Shown: in pieces, positions 2,243 through 63,834 of the stretch
How the letters are laid out: every line of letters begins with the position of its first letter
Position numbering within the stretch: the stretch's first letter is position 1
Assembly: GCF_026339935.1 (NCBI RefSeq)
Contig: NZ_JAPEPX010000001.1
Span: 3,052,001-3,116,000 of the forward strand
DNA length: 64,000 bases
Reading direction: 5' to 3'
DNA from: Streptomyces sp. NBC_01551
GTDB taxonomy: Bacteria > Actinomycetota > Actinomycetes > Streptomycetales > Streptomycetaceae
Notes under the pieces: generated by a model
Databases searched by the model: none
What the model was told of the DNA's origin: nothing
What the model saw: only the letters and a program-made list of their open reading frames with translations
Position numbers and translations under genes: made by a program

Positions 2243-3691
2243 CTAGAGGCAGCGCAGTGCCGCGTACAGGTCCAGCTTGTGTTCCAGGCGGGACAGGTCG
2301 CGGCCCGTGAGGGTCTCCACCCGCTCGATCCGGTAGTGCACGGTGTTCACGTGCAGGTGCAGCGCCTCCGCCGTGCGCGTCCACGAGCAGTTGTGGGCGA
2401 GGAAGACCTCAAGCGTCTCCCGCAGCATCCCGTCCCCGAGCGCGCCCAGCGTCCGCGTCCCGAAGACCGACCGGACCTCCGTCGGCACCCCCGCCAGCAG
2501 CTCCGCGAGGGTGTCCAGCTGCTCGACCCCGCGCACCGGAACCTCGGGGTCCGTCGCCGTCAGGGCGAACCTGGCCTGGGTGAGCGACGCGCGTAGCCCG
2601 TCGAGCCCGGACGCCGGCGAGCCCACGCCCAGCCGCGGTGCGGCGTCCGGGTCGCACGCCTGGAGCAGCGGCCACACCGCGCGCAGCCGGCCCGTCACGT
2701 CGCTCTGCGCGGCCGGGTCCTCGTACAGCAGGGCGGCCGCGTCCCCGACCGCGCACGGCACCTCTCCCAGGTGCCCCAGCGCCTCCGCCAGGGCGTCGCC
2801 CGAGGTGGCGACCAGCAGCCGGTACGGCCCGCCCGACGGCAGCCCGGCCGCGCCGAGGGCCTCCTCCAGCGCTCCCGGATCCGCCGGGCCCTCCCCCGAC
2901 AGCATCCCGATCAGCTCCTGCCCCGCCGCCCGGGCGGCGGCCACCCGGCGCGCCTGCCCGTCGCGGTACTGGGCGAACACCTCGGCGATCTCGTGGAGCA
3001 CCCGCGGCGGCGCCGCGTCCGCGTCCGGAACGTGCAGGTGCCAGGCGTCGTACGGCGAGCTCTCGGCCTCGATGCGCAGCGAGACCCCGCCCCGCACCGA
3101 GCCGGCCCGCTGCGCCGGGATGACCGGCGCGGAGGGCGTACGGGCCACCGTGCGGCCGCTCGCGGTGAGCAGGTAGCACGCCACCCGGCCCAGGTGCGCG
3201 CAGGCGCGGTCCAGCAGCTCGGCCGGGCCCGCCCCGCCCTCCAGGAGCCGGCTCAGCTCGCCGCGCACGTTCTCGGGGAGGGCGAACAGCCGGGTCGGGC
3301 GGCGGATCAGGTCGCCCCACTGGCGCAGGTACACCGCCTCGGTGACGGCGCGGAAGCTGGTCCGCGCGGGCACGGCCACCAGCGGCACCCGGTAGGCGCG
3401 GCAGGCCGCCACCAGCTCGTCGGGGACCTTGCCATGGGTCTCCTCGCCGGCCAGCAGCGCGGTGGCCCCGGCCTGGGCGAGCGCGGAGACGAAACGGTCC
3501 GCCTTCGCGCGGTCGCCGTCCGCCCACCACACCAGGCCGCTCAGGACGAGCTCCCCGGGGCCCAGGAACCGGCCCGGCTCCTCCAGGTCGGTGGCCGTGA
3601 CGCCGTTGACCTCCTGGCCGAGAAGGTCCTCATCGCCCCAGAGCAGGGTGAGGCCGAGGTTGTCGGACTGGAGCAGGTCGAGGACATGCAT
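2243..3691 (-). CDS. PucR-family transcriptional regulator (purine catabolism type)
   Basis: 482 aa from the ATG at 3691, preceded by AAGGAG; the frame stays open further upstream but without conservation-like signals. The N-terminal ~125 residues match the PucR ligand domain (LLQSDNLGLTLLWGDEDLLG, LVLSGLVWW, VPLVAVPARTSFRAVTEAVY). The C-terminal HTH_30 at about 425-480 contains CSWTRTAEALHLHVNTVHYR. PucR regulators activate or repress purine degradation. It is divergent from the xanthine-dehydrogenase-type genes at 3917-7524, and the 225-bp intergenic region probably holds the shared control sites. Control of that operon is inferred from position. Confidence 0.88.
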   Translation of the reverse strand: MHVLDLLQSDNLGLTLLWGDEDLLGQEVNGVTATDLEEPGRFLGPGELVLSGLVWWADGDRAKADRFVSALAQAGATALLAGEETHGKVPDELVAACRAYRVPLVAVPARTSFRAVTEAVYLRQWGDLIRRPTRLFALPENVRGELSRLLEGGAGPAELLDRACAHLGRVACYLLTASGRTVARTPSAPVIPAQRAGSVRGGVSLRIEAESSPYDAWHLHVPDADAAPPRVLHEIAEVFAQYRDGQARRVAAARAAGQELIGMLSGEGPADPGALEEALGAAGLPSGGPYRLLVATSGDALAEALGHLGEVPCAVGDAAALLYEDPAAQSDVTGRLRAVWPLLQACDPDAAPRLGVGSPASGLDGLRASLTQARFALTATDPEVPVRGVEQLDTLAELLAGVPTEVRSVFGTRTLGALGDGMLRETLEVFLAHNCSWTRTAEALHLHVNTVHYRIERVETLTGRDLSRLEHKLDLYAALRCL

Positions 3692-3916: not shown

Positions 3917-4744
3917 TTGGATCTCAACACGGTGCTCGACGTACGCGACGCGCGCCGCCGCGAACCCTGGCGTCCCGGCGACGCCTGGCTCGGCGGCGGC
4001 ACGTACCTCTTCTCCGAGCCGCAGCCGCACATCCGCCGCCTGATCGACCTGTCCGGGATGGGCTGGCCGCCGCTGGCCTGGCAGCCCGACGGCTCCCTCG
4101 ACATCGCCGCCACCTGCACCATCACCGAGCTGTCCCGGTTCGGCCGGAAGCTGCCCGCCACCGCGGCCCCGCTCATCGAGCAGTGCTGCCGGGCCTTCCT
4201 GGCCAGCTTCAAGATCTGGAACATGGCGACCGTCGGCGGCAACCTCTGCAACGGCCTCCCCGCCGGCCCGATGGTCTCCCTCACCGCCGCTCTGGACGGC
4301 ACCTGCCTGCTCCAGGGCCAGGACGGCTCCACCCGCCGCCTGCCCGTCACCGACTTCGTCCTCGGCGCGGGCGTCAAGGACCTGCGCGAGGGCGACCTGC
4401 TGCGCTCCGTCCGCATCCCCGCCCGCGCCCTGGCCTGCCGTACGGCCTTCCGGCAGGCCTCGCTCTACGGACTCGGGCGCTCCGGCGCGCTGATCATCGG
4501 CGCCTGCGATCCCCAGGACGGCTCCTTCGCGCTGACCGTCTCCGCCGCCACGACCCGCCCCTTCCGCTTCTGGTTCGCCCTGCCGCCCACCGCCGCCGAG
4601 CTGCGCGCGGTGATCGACGACACCGTCCGGCCCGGCGAGTGGTACGACGACATCCACGGACTGCCCGCCTGGCGGCGCCACATGGCCCTGCTCCTGGCTG
4701 AGGAGATCCGCCGCGAACTCACGCTGGAGGAGGTTGCCCGATGA
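3917..4744 (+). CDS. FAD-binding subunit of xanthine dehydrogenase-type molybdoenzyme
   Basis: 275 aa. I choose the TTG at 3917 ([18 protein letters not shown]), with AAGGTGG seven bases upstream. The protein has the CO-dehydrogenase-flavoprotein fold. The FAD-binding motifs are [11 protein letters not shown] (PP-loop) and [20 protein letters not shown] (the T-G-G-N loop), followed by the C-terminal CODH_FAD_C domain (about 175-270). It passes electrons from the Fe-S clusters to NAD+ or O2. The stop overlaps the next ATG as ATGA, so the two subunits are translationally coupled. This chain holds only the flavin domain; the other two cofactor domains are fused in the next gene. Confidence 0.88.
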
Positions 4745-7524
4745 GCTACGAGATCGAGATCAACAAGGAGCGTTTCGACACCGAGCCCCGGGCCGGCCAG
4801 TGCCTGCGCACCTACCTGCGCGAGCGCGGCTGGTTCGGTGTGAAGAAGGGCTGCGACCAGGGCGACTGCGGGGCCTGCACCGTCCACGTCGACGGGCAGC
4901 CGGTGCACAGCTGCCTCTACCCCGCCGTCCGCGCCGAGGGCCGCTCCGTCACCACCGTCGAGGGCCTCGCCAAGGAGGGCGGCGAACTCCACCCCGCCCA
5001 GCAGCAGTTCCTCGACGCCCAGGGCTTCCAGTGCGGATTCTGCACGGCCGGGTTCCTGATGACCACCGCCGCGCTCCAGGCGGAGCGGGGCACCGCCCAC
5101 GACGACGGCAAGCTCGACGACCTCCCGCGCGCCTTCAAGGGCAACATCTGCCGCTGTACGGGCTACCGCGCCATCGAGGACGCCGTCCGCGGGGTCAAGC
5201 ACACCGAGCGCCCCGAGGCCGGCCAGGCCGTCGGCAAGTCGCTCGGCGCCCCCGCCGGGCCCCTCGTCGTCACCGGCACCGCCCGCTACACCTTCGACGT
5301 CGAGGTGCCCGGGCTCCTCCACATGAAGCTGCTTCGCTCCCCGCACCCGCACGCCCGCATCGTCGACATCGACACCAGGGACGCGCTCCAGGTCCCGGGC
5401 GTGCACGCCGTCCTCACCCACCACGACGCCCCCGACCGGCTGTACTCGTCCGCCCGCCACGAGCACCCCACCGAGGACCCGATGGACACCCGTGTCCTGG
5501 ACGACGTGGTCCGCTTCGTCGGCCAGCGCGTGGCGGCCGTCGTCGCCGACAGCGAGCAGGCGGCCGAGGAGGGCTGCCGCCGCGTGGTGGTCACGTACGA
5601 GGAACTCCCGTACGTCATCGACCCGGAGGAGGCGATGCTGCCGGGCGCGCCCGTCCTCCACCCCAAGGGCCCCGAGTCGGGCATCTTCCGCGCCGAGAAC
5701 AACGTGTGCGGCGAGGTGCACGGCACGATCGGCGACATGGAGCAGGGCTACGCGCAGGCGGACGTCGTCTACGAGGAGACCTTCCAGACCCAGCGCGTGC
5801 AGCACGCCAGCCTGGAGACCCACGGCAGCGTCGCGTACTTCGAACCCAAGGAGGAGGGCGAGGGCGAGCGCGTCACCGTCCGCTCCTCCACCCAGGCCCC
5901 GTTCCTGACCCGGCGGGCGCTGTGCGCGCTCTACGACCTGAACGAGGACGAGGTCCGCGTCGTCGCGGGCCGCGTGGGCGGCGGGTTCGGCGGCAAGCAG
6001 GAGATGCTGACCGAGGACATCGTGGTCCTCGCCGCCCTGAAGCTGCGGCGCCCGGTGAAACTCGAATTCACCCGGGCCGAGCAGTTCTACGGTGCCACCA
6101 CCCGCCACCCGTTCAAGATCACGATCAAGGTCGGCGCCAAGGCCGACGGCACCCTCACCGCGCTGCGCATCCGCGTGCTCTCCAATACCGGCGCCTACGG
6201 CAACCACGGCCCGGCGGTCATGTTCCACAGCGTCGGCGAGTCCTTCGCCGTCTACAAAGCGCCGAACAAGGAGGTCGAGGCGTACTCGGTCTACACCAAC
6301 GGCGTGCCGGCCGGCGCCTTCCGCGGCTACGGCCTCGGCCAGGTCCTCTTCGCCCTCGAATCGGTGATGGACGAGCTCGCCGTCAAGCTCGGCATGGACC
6401 CGCTCGTGCTGCGCGAGAAGAACGTCATCGGCGCTGGCGACCACATGGTGACCCCGATCGGCCACGAGGAGGACCTGTTCATCGCCTCGTACGGGATGAA
6501 GCAGTGCATGGACGTCGTCCGCAAGGCCATCGCAGAGGACCGCAGCCACGAGGACGTTCCCGAGGGCTGGCTCACCGGGACGGGATCGGCCGTCGCCATG
6601 ATCGCGACCGGCCCGCCGGGCGGCCACTTCGCCGACGCCCGGGTCAGCCTGCTGCGCGACGGCACGTACGACATCGCGGTCGGCACGGCGGAGTTCGGCA
6701 ACGGCACCACCACCGTCCACAAACAGATCACCGCAGGCGCGCTGAACACCACGGTCGACCGGATCGCGGTCCGCCAGTCGGACACCGACGTCGTCCGCCA
6801 CGACACCGGCGCCTTCGGCTCCGCCGGCACGGTGGTGGCGGGCAAGGCGGTGCTGCTGGCGGCCAACTCGCTCGCCGAGCGCCTGCAGACCTTCGCCGCC
6901 CGGCACACGGGCGTCGCCCGGCACCTGTGCAAGCTGGAGGCCGAGTCCTTCGACTGCGCGGGCCGGATCGTCACCCTGAAGGAGCTGTACGAGGCCGCGT
7001 ACGACAAGGGCAAGCCGGAGGAGCTGGCGGCGGACGGCCACTGGGGCGGTTCACCGCGCTCGGTCGCCTTCAACGCCCAGTGGTTCCGGCTGGCGGTCGA
7101 CCCGGACACGGGCGAGATGAGGATCCTGCGCAGCGTGCACGCGGCTGACGCGGGCAAGGTCATGAACCCGATGCAGTGCCGGGGCCAGGTGGAGGGCGGC
7201 GTGGCCCAGGCGCTGGGCGCGACCCTGTTCGAGACGGTACGGGTGGACGAGCGCGGCGAAGTGACCACGGCGGCCTTCCGGCGCTACCGGCTGCCGCAGT
7301 ACGCGGACGTCCCGCGTACGGAGGTCCACTTCATGGAGACCTCGGACGCGATCGGGCCGCTCGGCGCCAAGTCCATGAGCGAGAGCCCCTTCAATCCGGT
7401 GGCGCCGGCCTTCGCCAATGCCCTGCGGGACGCGACGGGGGTCCGGTTCACGCAGATGCCGGTGACACGCGACGTGGTGTGGCAGAAGATCTCGCAGAAT
7501 CTGCCAGGCGCGAGCACCACTTAG
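4741..7524 (+). CDS. Xanthine dehydrogenase-type subunit: fused [2Fe-2S] and molybdopterin domains
   Basis: 927 aa. Residues 1-165 form the ferredoxin part. The plant-type cluster Cys are C38, C43, C46 and C58 ([16 protein letters not shown]); the second cluster is CGFC near residue 98 and NICRCTGYR near 136. From about 170 the Mo-bis-domain follows: [34 protein letters not shown] and [10 protein letters not shown]. Enzymes of this family hydroxylate purines or aldehydes using Mo-pterin, Fe-S and FAD. The usual three-subunit arrangement is reduced to two chains. The divergent PucR gene makes xanthine or hypoxanthine the likeliest substrate, though sequence alone does not exclude an aldehyde or N-heterocycle substrate. 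Confidence 0.85.
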
Positions 7525-13036: not shown

Positions 13037-14617
13037 TCACCGGCGCCGCTTCGCCGTCCCGAAGATCGAGCGCGAGATCTCCCGCCCCAGCTGCGTCCCG
13101 ACGGACCTGGCCAGCGAGCGGAACAGCCCGCTGCCCACCACCTGCTGCGCCAGCGAGGGATCCGGCTTCGGGGCGCTCTTGGCGGCCTTCTCCGCCGCCT
13201 TGGCCTGCTTCTCGGCCTCCGCGGCGGCCGCCGCCGCCTCGGCCTGCGTCTCCGCGGCCGCCTGCTCGGCGCTGATCTTCTCGTACGCCGACTCCCGGTC
13301 GACCGGCTCGGCGTAACGCGAGTAGAGCAGCGAGGACTTCACGGCCTGCTCCAACGCCGTCGCCTCGATCGGCCCCATCAGCGACTGCGGGGCCCGCAGC
13401 CGGGTCGCCGCGACCGGGGTCGGGGCGCCGTTCTCGCTGAGTACGGTGATCACCGCCTCGCCCGTGCCCAGGCCGGTCAGCAGCTCCTCCAGGTCGTACG
13501 GGGAGTTCGGGAAGGTCTTCACCGTCGCCTTGAGCGCCTTCGCGTCGTCCGGGGTGAAGGCCCGCAGCGCGTGCTGCACCCGGTTGCCGAGCTGGGCCAG
13601 CACGTCCGCCGGTACGTCCTTCGGGACCTGGGTCACGAAGAAGATCCCCACCGCCTTGGAACGGATCAGCCGCACGATCTGCGTGATGGACTCCAGGAAC
13701 GCCTTCGAGGCGCCGTTGAACAGCAGGTGCGCCTCGTCGAAGAAGAAGACCAGCTTCGGCCGCTCCACGTCGCCGACCTCAGGCAGGTCCGCGTACAGAT
13801 CGGCCAGCAGCCACATCAGGAACGTGGAGAACAGCTGCGGCTTGTCCTGCACGGCCGGGAGTTCCAGTACGGAGACCAGCCCGCGCCCGTCCGCCGCCGT
13901 CCGCAGGAACTCGCTCGTGTCGAACTCGGGCTCCCCGAAGAACTCCCCGGCGCCCTGCTGTTCGAACGCCGTCAGCGCCCGCAGGATCACCCCGGCCGTC
14001 ACCGTGGACAGCCCGCCGATGCCCCTGAGCTCGGCTTTGCCCTGGTCGGAGACGAGGAAGGCGACGACCGCCCGGAGGTCCTTGAGGTCGATGAGCTCCA
14101 GGCCCTTGGAATCGGCGTAGTGGAAGATCAGGCCCAGCGACTGCTCCTGCGTCTGGTTGAGCTGGAGCACCTTCGACATCAGCACCGGGCCGAAACTCGT
14201 CACGGTGGCCCGCACCGGGATTCCGGTGCCGATCCCGCCCAGTGCGTAGAACTCGCTGGGACAGCCGGTGGCTTCCCAGTCCTGGGCCACCTCCCCGGCC
14301 CGCTGGGTGACCTTCTCGTTCGCCACGCCCGGCGCGCAGATCCCGGAGACGTCGCCCTTGACGTCCGCGAGGAAGACGGGGACGCCGGCCGCCGACAGCT
14401 GCTCGGCGATGAGCTGGAGGGTCTTGGTCTTGCCGGTGCCGGTGGCGCCCGCGACGAGGCCGTGGCGGTTGAGCATCGACAGCGGGATCCGGATCTGCAG
14501 ATCGGGCCGGCAGGCGCCGTCCCAGAGCAGAGCGCCCAAGTCGAGGGCCGGTCCTGTGAAGGCGTACCCGGCGGCGATCTGGCCGGCCGGAGACGCGGGG
14601 TCGGTGCTCTCGCTCAT
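13037..14617 (-). CDS. HerA-like/DUF853 ATPase
   Basis: 526 aa. Walker A is GATGTGKTKT (about residues 51-60) and Walker B is KLVFFFDEAHLLF; an arginine-rich sensor region follows (IVRLIRSKAVGIFFVTQVPK). This is the DUF853 group of HerA/FtsK-superfamily ATPases, thought to act on DNA or other polymers. The C-terminal ~100 residues contain a long Ala/Glu/Lys coiled coil (about 440-490) and a basic tail. GGGAG precedes the ATG at 14617. Confidence 0.85.
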   Translation of the reverse strand: MSESTDPASPAGQIAAGYAFTGPALDLGALLWDGACRPDLQIRIPLSMLNRHGLVAGATGTGKTKTLQLIAEQLSAAGVPVFLADVKGDVSGICAPGVANEKVTQRAGEVAQDWEATGCPSEFYALGGIGTGIPVRATVTSFGPVLMSKVLQLNQTQEQSLGLIFHYADSKGLELIDLKDLRAVVAFLVSDQGKAELRGIGGLSTVTAGVILRALTAFEQQGAGEFFGEPEFDTSEFLRTAADGRGLVSVLELPAVQDKPQLFSTFLMWLLADLYADLPEVGDVERPKLVFFFDEAHLLFNGASKAFLESITQIVRLIRSKAVGIFFVTQVPKDVPADVLAQLGNRVQHALRAFTPDDAKALKATVKTFPNSPYDLEELLTGLGTGEAVITVLSENGAPTPVAATRLRAPQSLMGPIEATALEQAVKSSLLYSRYAEPVDRESAYEKISAEQAAAETQAEAAAAAAEAEKQAKAAEKAAKSAPKPDPSLAQQVVGSGLFRSLARSVGTQLGREISRSIFGTAKRRR

Positions 14618-52789: not shown

Positions 52790-52812
52790 AGCTGGGCCTC
52801 AGGCCCTGCTGG

Positions 52813-52869
52813 CGGTGGGTGTGGGATTTGAACCCACGGTGACTCGCGCCACGACGGTTTTCAAGACCG
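52813..52869 (-). pseudogene. 3' fragment of tRNA-Ser(TGA): element attachment core
   Basis: Reading leftward this is the last 57 nt of tRNA-Ser(UGA): the anticodon stem from its second pair, loop CTTGAAA (TGA), variable arm TGGCGCGAGTCACC, T-arm GTGGGTTCAAATCCCAC, acceptor ACCCACC and discriminator G. Sequence beyond 52870 cannot form the 5' half: the first anticodon-stem pair is C-T, and no GGTGGGT acceptor or D-arm occurs at the right distance. This is what remains at one end when an integrating element recombines in the 3' half of a tRNA. The functional tRNA should be at the other end. Confidence 0.8.
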
Positions 52870-52979: not shown

Positions 52980-53549
52980 TCAGCCGAAGGGTGCCATGGG
53001 CTTCGGCGCAAGCGCGAGATCTGTAAGCGAGGAGTCCGCCAGACGCGTCGGACGCTGCGCAAGCCACCCAGACACACGGGGGCCGCCGTTGACCGCGCCA
53101 CCTTCCCGCACCGTCCGGACGTGCTCGAACCCGTGGCTGAGGTAGTAGCGCTGAAGCGCCTCATTGGTGGTCCAGGCATCGAGCCGAAGCCATGAAGCGC
53201 CTGCCCGACGGGCGCGATCACCCGCCCAGTCCAAGAGGGTCCCACCGATGTCCTGCCCCGCGTGCGTCCGCGCGACAGTCAGCTTGTTCACGAACATGGA
53301 CGGCTCTTTCAGTTCATCAGCCGTCCAGAGCCCGTCTTCCGCTTCCTCAGTGAGCGTGATCGTGGCGACCGTGGCGCCCTCATCCCTCAGCATGAAGACC
53401 GTCCCGGATTCGATGGTCTTCAGGAGTCGGTCCGCCGGGTACGGCCTGCGCCACTGATCACTGCCCAGCGCGCTCAGCCACGCCGCAGCCTCCTCCCGAA
53501 AAGCGAGCAGCGCGGCGAGGTCATCTGGCGTCGCGTTCTCGATGATCAC
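52980..53549 (-). CDS. GNAT N-acetyltransferase
   Basis: 189 aa from the GTG at 53549, overlapping the GntR stop as GTGA. The acetyl-CoA fold is visible: MFVNKLTVARTHAGQDIGGT, LLDWAGDRARRAGASWLRLD and ALQRYYLSHGFEHVRTV (motif B). Substrate unknown. Co-transcribed with the repressor gene at the element end, so it may modify a repressor ligand or confer a cargo trait; neither can be told from sequence. Confidence 0.85.
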   Translation of the reverse strand: MIIENATPDDLAALLAFREEAAAWLSALGSDQWRRPYPADRLLKTIESGTVFMLRDEGATVATITLTEEAEDGLWTADELKEPSMFVNKLTVARTHAGQDIGGTLLDWAGDRARRAGASWLRLDAWTTNEALQRYYLSHGFEHVRTVREGGAVNGGPRVSGWLAQRPTRLADSSLTDLALAPKPMAPFG

Positions 53550-54319
53550 AGCTGCTCGCCCTCGGCTCGGTCGGGCAGAGTGCCGATCTCATAGTTCATG
53601 CGGTTGAGGTCGCCGCGGAACGTGGTGATCGTGCAGCGGATGATGCGTTCGCCGGCGTACCCGGTTCGGGTCCAGAGCAGCACCGGCACGCCTGCGCCCA
53701 CATCCAGGAGCCGCGCTTCGTCCGGCGTCGGCATGCGTGTGGCGATCTCGTCGAAGTAGCCGACCTGCTCGATCCCCGCTGCGGCGAGGTAGCGGGTCGT
53801 CCCTTCGGCGATGTCGCCCGGTTCGGCCAACCGGGGGGCCTGCTTCACGAGCCAGTCCGGGTAGTACGTCGCCTGGGTCGACCAAGGAACGTCGTCCACG
53901 AAGCGGTGGCAGAACCGAAGCACCGTGGTCGAACCGCCAGCCACCTTGAGGCGTTCGGCAACGTACTCGGTCGCCGGCGTCACCTCGACACGGAAGGTCT
54001 GAGTCGGCCTACGACCGGCATTGGTGACGTCGGTGTTGTAGGCGTCGCCGTTCTGCGGAAACGTCAAGTTCTCAAAGCGTGAGGCGTTCAGCTCGAACAC
54101 CTCATGCTTGCGAACCTCGTAGCCGAGACCCTGGCTAGACGAGATCAGACCCTCGCCGACCAGGGCCTTCAGGCCCGATCGCACGGTGTTCCGCGAAGCG
54201 TCGAAACGAGCCGAGAGGTCACTTTCGGACGGCAGGCGAGTCCCCGGCGGATAGACGCCGCTGTCGATCTCCCGACGGAGGGCGTCAGCCACCTGTAGGT
54301 ACTTCGGCTGCTTGTTCAT
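53546..54319 (-). CDS. GntR/HutC-family transfer repressor (KorSA-like)
   Basis: 257 aa from the ATG at 54319. The winged helix (YLQVADALRREIDSGVYPPG, TRLPSESDLSARFDASRNTV, GLKALVGEGLISSSQGLGYE) is followed by a UTRA ligand-binding domain (about 95-245: RFCHRFVDDVPWSTQATYYP, PVLLWTRTGYAGERIIRCTI). In pSAM2 KorSA represses pra and its own gene to keep the element integrated. Two matching inverted 17-bp sites lie upstream of this gene at 54343-54431. Confidence 0.85.
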   Translation of the reverse strand: MNKQPKYLQVADALRREIDSGVYPPGTRLPSESDLSARFDASRNTVRSGLKALVGEGLISSSQGLGYEVRKHEVFELNASRFENLTFPQNGDAYNTDVTNAGRRPTQTFRVEVTPATEYVAERLKVAGGSTTVLRFCHRFVDDVPWSTQATYYPDWLVKQAPRLAEPGDIAEGTTRYLAAAGIEQVGYFDEIATRMPTPDEARLLDVGAGVPVLLWTRTGYAGERIIRCTITTFRGDLNRMNYEIGTLPDRAEGEQL

Positions 54320-58194: not shown

Positions 58195-58209
58195 GCGAGC
58201 GTCCACATC

Positions 58210-58309
58210 GGTTACCGGTTACCGGTTACAGGCCGAGGACGCCACCCTGTCCCCGCCCTGGGCGGCCCGAACCGTCGCCCGCAGTGCCTGTAACCGGTAA
58301 CCGGTAACC
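58210..58309. repeat. Perfect 24-bp inverted repeat of GGTTACC iterons
   Basis: The left arm (58210-58233) and right arm (58286-58309) are exact reverse complements separated by 52 bp. Each arm is three tandem heptamers, GGTTACC, GGTTACC and GGTTACA, followed by GGC. It lies between two transfer-operon genes. Candidates are a cis-acting transfer locus recognised by TraB, a regulator site or an mRNA structure. Confidence 0.9.
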
Positions 58310-58343
58310 CCCGACAACTACACAGTGTCACGGAAGGAGGCTC

Positions 58344-62781: not shown

Positions 62782-63834
62782 ATGACTCAACCCACCCTTG
62801 TCCCGCGAGTGGACGGGCCGAGGATCTTGTCCCTGTGCACCGGCTACGGCGGACTCGACCTGGCCGTCACCGCCGGACTTCCGGACGCGACCGTGGTCGC
62901 GCACGCCGAGACCGACCAGGCCGCCGCCCGGATCCTCGCCCACCACCACCCGAGCGTCCCGAATCTCGGCGACATCACGCGCGTGGACTGGGCGGCCGTG
63001 CGGGCCGCGTTCGCGCCGACCGTGATCACCGTCGGGTTCCCCTGCCAGGACATCTCCAACGCCGGTACCCGGGAGGGCATCCGAGGTGAACGCTCCGGAA
63101 TCTGGACCTCCGTCGCCCACGCCGTTCGCGACGTTCGACCCGAGTACGTCTTCCTGGAAAACGTCGCCGCCCTCGTCCGACGCGGCCTCGACGTCGTCGC
63201 AGGCGACCTGGCCACGCTCGGGTACGACCTGTCGTGGACGTGCCTTCGCGCGTCCGACATCGGAGCCCCCCACCGCCGGGACCGCTGGTGGGGACTGGCC
63301 CACCGCGACGATTCCGACCCCGACACGCTCCGACGGGACTGGCGGCCCTGGCAGCAGCCCCCGACGTCGGGGCGGACTCAACCTCCGCACCTGGGTCACC
63401 ACACTCCCGCACCCCCCGCACACCCCGGAGTGAGTCGGGTGCGGATGCTCCCCACCCCGAAGGCCTCCGACGGGCCCAACCAGCGTGACCGGGCCGGGAA
63501 CTACTACCTCCCCGGCCTCGCCCCCCGACTGGACTCCCGCTGGGTCGATCACACCGGCACCGACCACGCTCCCGCCATCCACCGTTGGGCACACGTCCTT
63601 GGCCACCCGGCCCCGGAGCCGACCGAGCCCGCCCAACGTGGTCCGGGACGCCGGTTGGCGCCGGCCTTCGCGGAATGGCTCATGGGGGTCCCCGGCCGCG
63701 TCACCACCGTCCCCGACCTGACCCGCTCCGACCGGCTCCGCGCCATCGGCAACGGCGCCGTCCCCCAACAGGGCCACGCCGGCTACACCCACCTCGTCCA
63801 CGCCCTCGCCGACGGCATGGAGGTGGCCGCATGA
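62782..63834 (+). CDS. DNA (cytosine-5) methyltransferase
   Basis: 350 aa. C5-MTase motifs in order: I (LSLCTGYGGLDLAV), IV with catalytic Cys88 (VGFPCQDISNAG), VI (FLENVAAL), VIII (HRRDRWW) and X (IGNGAVPQQ). The region between VIII and X (target recognition) is short and Pro/His-rich. No endonuclease gene is visible downstream within the window. On a conjugative element such an orphan enzyme may protect incoming DNA from host restriction. ATGA overlap with the next gene. Confidence 0.9.
   Translation: MTQPTLVPRVDGPRILSLCTGYGGLDLAVTAGLPDATVVAHAETDQAAARILAHHHPSVPNLGDITRVDWAAVRAAFAPTVITVGFPCQDISNAGTREGIRGERSGIWTSVAHAVRDVRPEYVFLENVAALVRRGLDVVAGDLATLGYDLSWTCLRASDIGAPHRRDRWWGLAHRDDSDPDTLRRDWRPWQQPPTSGRTQPPHLGHHTPAPPAHPGVSRVRMLPTPKASDGPNQRDRAGNYYLPGLAPRLDSRWVDHTGTDHAPAIHRWAHVLGHPAPEPTEPAQRGPGRRLAPAFAEWLMGVPGRVTTVPDLTRSDRLRAIGNGAVPQQGHAGYTHLVHALADGMEVAA

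Follow-up and report, generated by a model that had tools for sequence, protein, structure and literature searches.

The stretch of Streptomyces sp. NBC_01551 DNA analysed here (64 kb, referred to as the window) carries a transfer operon in the order orfD, orfE, orfF, orfG, translocase and orfI, with a perfect inverted repeat, hereafter the site, between orfE and orfF (Table 1). The operon belongs to an integrated element of about 15.7 kb in total; its tyrosine integrase gene (PF00589, E 1.2e-7) adjoins a tRNA-Ser at C1:3120420-3120509 of the genome, both past the end of the window. A sequence-only reading of this DNA had taken the element for an AICE, and a tyrosine integrase, a duplicated tRNA-Ser att site and a tra gene are indeed all present. 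A candidate for the element's own replication initiator (618 aa, L086:1296-3152) has no Pfam match, and a C-5 cytosine DNA methylase gene (62782-63834) lies downstream of the transfer operon in the same element. The host genome has two GGTTACC operons, one in the window and one on contig 5, and a third transfer operon of the translocase family, which belongs to another clade and has a TTCC-type site (L093, G000:C1:1378288-1380492).

Table 1. Features of the transfer operon and of the integrated element, in window coordinates.
Feature	Position	Strand	Remarks
attL, imperfect copy of the tRNA-Ser 3' part	about 52809..52869		
GntR/UTRA regulator of the element	53546..54319	-	no GGTTACC nearby
orfD, 206 aa	57357..57977	+	no Pfam match; distant homologues before the gap in other clades
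orfE, 71 aa	57979..58194	+	
Non-coding gap of the operon holding the site, 149 bp	58195..58343		
Left arm	58210..58233	+	GGTTACC, GGTTACC, GGTTACA, GGC
Spacer, 52 bp	58234..58285		asymmetric core GGCCCGAACC
Right arm	58286..58309	-	exact reverse complement of the left arm
orfF, 322 aa	58344..59312	+	proline-rich stretch; start 35 nt past the site
orfG, 130 aa	59324..59716	+	
Translocase-like ATPase, 718 aa	59730..61886	+	Walker A GGSRSGKSG; C-terminal HTH-like region; proposed site reader
orfI, 150 aa	61883..62335	+	DUF6197

The site spans 58210-58309, and its two 24-nt arms are 100% complementary across 52 nt, so that both the coordinates and the full complementarity read earlier were reproduced. 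The dense transfer operon described around it was also found, the site lying in a non-coding gap of 149 bp between two operon genes. The six heptamer copies of the earlier reading stand as four exact GGTTACC units, the third unit of each arm being GGTTACA, with one change. All four exact GGTTACC copies in the window fall inside the site, in agreement with the view that the heptamer cluster occurs only there; the count is uninformative by itself because at least four copies were reached in 26 of 100 shuffles (mean 2.55), and it is the arrangement that is unusual. Among 16 window segments of 3.8 kb, the one that holds the site has a top inverted-repeat score of 24 and the remaining 15 have 9-14, and 1000 mononucleotide shuffles of the gap gave a maximum score of 12 versus the 24 of the real sequence. 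In a fixed-threshold scan (inverted-repeat score at least 18, spacer 30-75), the site was the sole inverted repeat over the threshold in the window and in the following stretches of 19.9 and 15.1 kb. The phage collection gave no match to the site, and no description of it was found in the open-access literature searched; subscription papers (on pZL12, TraB of pSVH1 and others) may have one. A known RNA family was rejected, all Rfam matches being below their gathering scores (the best, MIR1883, had 34.6 bits versus the 128 required); a long hairpin may give such matches.

Translocase homologues at E 1e-20 were found in 58 of 72,556 plasmid records, 16 of them at 76-87% identity and 42 at 27-33%. 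The site is present in 22 plasmid records, namely in 16 of the 16 with a translocase of at least 76% identity, in none of the 42 with 27-33%, and in six others. Among 392 genomes of the genus, the exact site pattern occurs in 12; the reversed pattern, used as a control, is absent from all of them. The translocase family, searched at E 1e-60 with two candidates scored per genome, is present in 26 of the 392, and the cognate clade in 10, all among the 12 site-bearing genomes (clade translocase with site, 10; translocase alone, 0; site alone, 2; neither, 380); the truncated family members G318 and G385 belong to another clade. The sequence-only reading was to fall if the repeats were not conserved with the translocase in related elements; they proved to be present in all 16 plasmids and all 10 genomes that have the cognate translocase. 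The sample of 37 GGTTACC operon loci is biased, many of them having been found via the site itself. In operon copies with non-identical translocases, the spacer core has the same orientation relative to tra in 26 of 32 cases, the opposite one in 4 and an unclear one in 2, a bias and not a fixed orientation. These results show that the site is conserved as a DNA element of about 100 bp at a fixed place in the operon.

The arms also change together within the GGTTACC clade. In a set of 46 distinct copies (L031 and L038 left out, kinship not corrected), 16 deviations from the consensus are common to both arms, whereas 5000 shuffles gave 1.2 on average and 13 at most. Of the 16, nine are a single one-base deletion in both arms of L019; with that copy removed, 7 shared deviations remain versus a mean of 0.99, a number reached in 4 of 5000 shuffles, and the covariation is weaker but stays. 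Paired changes include GGTTACG in both arms (L028, L079, L082), GGTTACT (L040) and GGTTCTC (L023), and unpaired arm changes occur as well, for example in L025, L033, L044, L048, L051 and L054. The innermost units are spaced 58-62 apart in all but two of 48 copies; the exceptions are L019 (54) and L038 (51).

When the translocase is only about 28-30% identical to that of the window, the gap between the orfD-like and orfF-like genes holds inverted repeats built of other tandem units, the units and the gap limits having been set by eye. These units are TTCC (L088, L090, L092, L093), CTTA/TTCC (L106), TACTTAC (L117), CTCA (L095), TTACTCC or GTTACTCC (L096, L097, L099, L119-L122), TTACTCCTC (L110) and CTACTA (L089, L118). 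Two of the 21 other-clade loci, L094 and L098, are incomplete; in 16 of the 19 tested, the best inverted repeat was reached by at most 2 of 200 dinucleotide shuffles, and in the weaker gaps of L099, L118 and L115 the real score was reached by 6, 9 and 25 of 200. In 10 of these 16 gaps the outer tandem arms form the best repeat; it spans arms and inner stem in L096 and L121, and is the inner stem in L091, L097, L106 and L120, where the outer arms are imperfect. In three more distant loci (L103-L105) no recognisable orfD-orfF gap was found. That this gap in other clades mostly holds an inverted repeat with another spelling agrees with the earlier proposal of a site tied to the translocase. The unit types cluster with the translocase clades in a FastTree tree (without support values), and the putative recognition helix of the translocase varies by clade. 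As whole operons co-diverge, this grouping points to the operon rather than to a single protein, and co-divergence does not distinguish the translocase from orfF/orfG as the binder because these genes travel together.

Searches with other-clade sites gave uneven returns. The TTCC-type search matched 14 records, 11 of which are also among the translocase-bearing plasmids (the gap was read in three, L088, L090 and L092), and the TTACTCC query matched 18; the L122 site found two records and the CTACTA type of L089 its own record only. A search of the window's own genome with the L092 TTCC-type site found nothing despite the TTCC-type site in L093, which indicates a low sensitivity.

The GGTTACC site also occurs without a cognate translocase gene, on six plasmids and at several chromosomal loci. 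The flanks of these orphan copies are mostly unrelated beyond about 100 bp, L016, L018 and L041 being kin. A close translocase was absent from five of five orphan-bearing genomes examined. In genome G269 the orphan L125 lies about 0.9 Mb from a cognate operon, and Kitasatospora purpeofusca NBC_01202 has an orphan plasmid (L017) and a second plasmid with the full operon. TTCC-type orphans are present on three plasmids, pADI95-16d, NZ_CP108470 and NZ_CP109133; that of pADI95-16d (7,012 bp) has 33-nt arms with one mismatch position, and NZ_CP109133 has a GGTTACC operon of its own. Copies of the GGTTACC site are near contig ends in two species: at about 1.7 kb from either end of a 7.72-Mb contig in S. 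diastatochromogenes (L034:1663-1754, L027:590-681), and at about 4.9 kb from the start in two S. filamentosus contigs with 99.97% identity over 6 kb (L031:4895-5014, L049:4946-5065). These contig ends are probably chromosome ends, and both genomes lack the cognate translocase. A telomere site was rejected as a general reading, only part of the copies being near ends.

Several other features recur on the orphan plasmids. A DUF2637 protein is frequent there (L015, L016, L017, L018, L023, L126, by annotation or PF10935, with a match only below cut-off in L015) and many transfer operons, too, have one annotated upstream of the site; the protein may have a role in spreading in the recipient. A second short element of about 40-48 bp, with a pairwise identity of 86-89%, is common to several orphan plasmids (L015 about 4054-4100, L017 about 14226-14271, L041:1617-1664, L016 about 4792-4832). 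The palindrome GCCGTCACWGTGACGGC occurs in three orphan-bearing records (L016:3246-3375, L041:469-547, L126:5249-5307) and comes close to the form of the sps/SpdA motif, with T/A inserted at its centre, that has been described for pSVH1 and pEN2701. At L016:8866-8988 and L041:3019-3133 there are inverted repeats whose arms are similar and contain GACCT; the L016 repeat overlaps a 676-aa gene (no Pfam match) at its 3' end, on a plasmid that has a relaxase, and is perhaps the relaxase system's own site. Outside Streptomycetaceae, the pattern matched contigs of Tianweitania (L037) and Aquamicrobium (L043) and viral contigs (L055-L057). We rejected these as the same site, only the arms being alike, and excluded them from all counts; no operon homologue was found in the flanking DNA examined. 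An 84-bp inverted repeat with GGTTACCGGTTAC arms is shared by two Alphaproteobacteria contigs and a viral one (L037:6034-6117, L043:6797-6880, L055:2845-2928), and its spacer differs from that of the Streptomyces site.

Five records that lack the cognate translocase, L015, L017, L018, L022 and L127, have two to four different sites close together. The 11.4-kb linear plasmid L015, which is among the records matched by the TTACTCC query, carries a GGTTACC site (3183-3284) and a TTACTCC-type site (3468-3581); L018 has GGTTACC and TTCC sites; L017 has the GGTTACC, CACTCACC and GATCTGT types within 2.1 kb; L127 has the CAACACC, TTCC and GGGGC types between convergent genes; and L022 has GGTTACC and three GTCCG-based types. 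The fixed-threshold scan, whose counts include repeats without tandem units and leave the weaker TTCC sites of L127 and L128 below threshold, gave one repeat each, that of the operon, on the conjugative plasmids L019 (50 of 54.3 kb) and L020 (38 kb), three on L015, two on L016, four on L017, seven on L018 (a dimeric plasmid), five on L022, two on L127, and one each on L023, L126 and L128. Among the array types, only the GTCCGC and GGGGC loci were traced. In NZ_CP038146, 33 bp separate the GTCCGC type from the end of a gene with an FtsK/SpoIIIE domain (PF01580, E 1.4e-12). In NZ_CP109332 the GGGGC type occupies an orfE/orfF-like gap; a gene for a Walker-A ATPase lies downstream of it, and a phage terminase gene is nearby. 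The 716-aa ATPase beside this GGGGC site (AAA_22, E 0.039), which the family profile missed, is a putative translocase by position and motif only. Two further L022 types match NZ_CP149797 and NZ_CP108862, and searches with the CAACACC (L127) and GATCTGT (L017) types found no operon partner.

Walker A and B motifs can be read in the sequence of the window translocase. Its only Pfam match is AAA_22, at 20.9 bits versus a cut-off of 27; FtsK_SpoIIIE was not found above the Pfam cut-off, and the PDB gave no sequence match. The distant relative P0140 matches FtsK_SpoIIIE at E 0.061, and FtsK_gamma is above cut-off in two of five family members scanned (P0168 and P0172, which were picked because precomputed annotation already showed this domain). 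Several close relatives are named 'type IV secretory system conjugative DNA transfer family protein' by NCBI, and others 'hypothetical protein'. The last 68 aa match HTH_Mga (E 0.0011) and z-alpha (E 0.0028), both under the curated cut-offs, and the C-terminal winged helix assigned earlier is to this extent only weakly recovered.

The site behaves like a transfer site in that it is spelled per pump clade, is single on two self-transmissible plasmids and occurs without a pump on small plasmids. From these sequence patterns we consider it probable that the site is a transfer locus used in cis by the translocase whose gene begins 1.4 kb downstream, and the earlier reading of a transfer locus of a two-direction type is supported at this predictive level. 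In the mechanism that we propose, the C-terminal winged-helix region of the translocase would read the tandem unit (GGTTACC in the window) and each arm would load one motor ring, the inverted pair with its near-fixed gap positioning two motors, or one of either direction, on double-stranded DNA, which the motors loaded at the site would then export. As the site would act in cis but the pump in trans, every replicon bearing the site, orphan replicons included, might be moved by a pump arriving in its cell.

The TRS arrays of clt run in one direction. In the excerpts of PMC3583192, clt of pWTY27 and pSVH1 is bound by the translocase, and the direct repeats of clt are of 8 bp in pSVH1, 9 bp in pJV1 and 7 bp in pWTY27, with inverted repeats besides. 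Like clt of pIJ101, pJV1, pSVH1 and pWTY27, the site is a non-coding short-repeat locus near tra (that of pWTY27 is partly coding), and its sequence features would place it in a clt-like class and suggest that it works like clt. It differs from clt as described in those excerpts by its two facing tandem arrays with a near-fixed gap, although inverted repeats are also present in clt of pWTY27, and by the position of the tra gene, 1.4 kb off and behind two genes. Statements on TraB of pSVH1 are taken from excerpts of PMC3583192, PMC4170104, PMC9513070 and PMC4487206.

Five other readings were weighed against a transfer locus. The first, a quite improbable one, is a site for replication or copy control, comparable to the inverted iteron array to which RepA binds in pWTY27. 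According to the excerpts of PMC3583192, that iteron combines five 8-bp GTGGGAAC repeats with five 7-bp TTCCCAC repeats and an inverted repeat of about 105 bp (IR2), and the architecture is similar: in both cases an inverted repeat of about 100 bp stands amid 7- or 8-bp repeats, and in pWTY27 a single protein binds IR2. However, IR2 lies by repAB and serves replication, whereas the operon copies of our site lie in the transfer operon and not by a rep gene. Moreover, the site type tracks the translocase across several PLSDB replicon types (1879/1910/40, 1910 twice, 1921, 1975/43, 1974/43 and 249 among the typed plasmids with a GGTTACC operon), and the hosts are linear, circular or integrated.

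An RNA element, that is, a hairpin in the transcript just upstream of orfF acting in processing, attenuation or translation control, is very improbable. The site ends 35 nt before the orfF start, its single-stranded DNA fold is strong (z -6.55; -9.78 for the TTCC type) and the arms are complementary in most clades; yet orphans lie away from the operon, as between the convergent gene ends of L127 or 3' of a gene in L128, differently spelled copies cluster without operon genes, and the tandem unit is kept in the arms, which a mere hairpin would not need. A partition or segregation site is just as improbable. Orphans do lie about 0.7 kb (L015) and about 2 kb (L017) from a parA gene, and the site is, like sps, a palindromic DNA site of Streptomyces plasmids; but the 12-bp sps palindrome CGTCACGTGACG, which in the excerpts of PMC4170104 is bound by SpdA2 of pIJ101 and affects stability and not transfer, is a different motif, and it was not found here, the arms being made of GGTTACC units. 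In L020, moreover, parA and the site are far apart (13.2 and 34.4 kb, respectively), and the tracking of the translocase by the site type also speaks against partition.

Transfer operons in this group are governed by GntR-type repressors, and an operator for the element's GntR or another regulator had been named as an alternative in the sequence-only reading. It is now weakened to a highly improbable one: outside the site, GGTTACC is absent from the window, the gntR gene included, and the GntR proteins of orphan plasmids are distant, with 25-34% identity (L015-L018, L023). A MITE-like small mobile palindrome inserted in the operon by chance would fit the orphan copies in unrelated flanks and the grouped copies, but it is hardly credible with the same gap filled in clades with different repeat units and the site present in every GGTTACC-clade operon examined.

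If the site is a transfer locus, the orphan copies and the differently spelled groups could be docking arrays for several pumps. More tentatively, and as a possibility that we hold at somewhat less than even, there may be a family of lock sites, inverted tandem-unit arrays of about 100 bp with one spelling per FtsK-like pump clade, several of which non-conjugative plasmids, and perhaps some linear chromosome ends, would collect near each other for double-stranded export by the many conjugative elements that enter the cell, a relaxase-free form of oriT mimicry. Known oriT mimics are relaxase nick sites for single-strand transfer. On non-conjugative staphylococcal plasmids they copy the transfer-site subtypes of conjugative relatives, as stated in the excerpts of PMC8136818, and the orphan sites would resemble them as transfer-site copies on plasmids without transfer genes; unlike them, the operon here has no relaxase (some host plasmids have one elsewhere) and the pump looks FtsK-like.

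If this is right, relaxase-free DNA transfer in Streptomyces would have a recognisable sequence signature, and the site of a mobile element could be paired with its pump from sequence alone. The make-up of an array would predict which pumps a plasmid has met, and the spread of plasmids typed as 'non-mobilizable', such as pADI95-16d (7 kb) and the S. althioticus plasmid L015 (11.4 kb), would be explained. The pairs of repeat unit and recognition helix would be natural specificity pairs for studying how pumps read DNA, and the near-end copies in two species would bear on chromosomal gene transfer.
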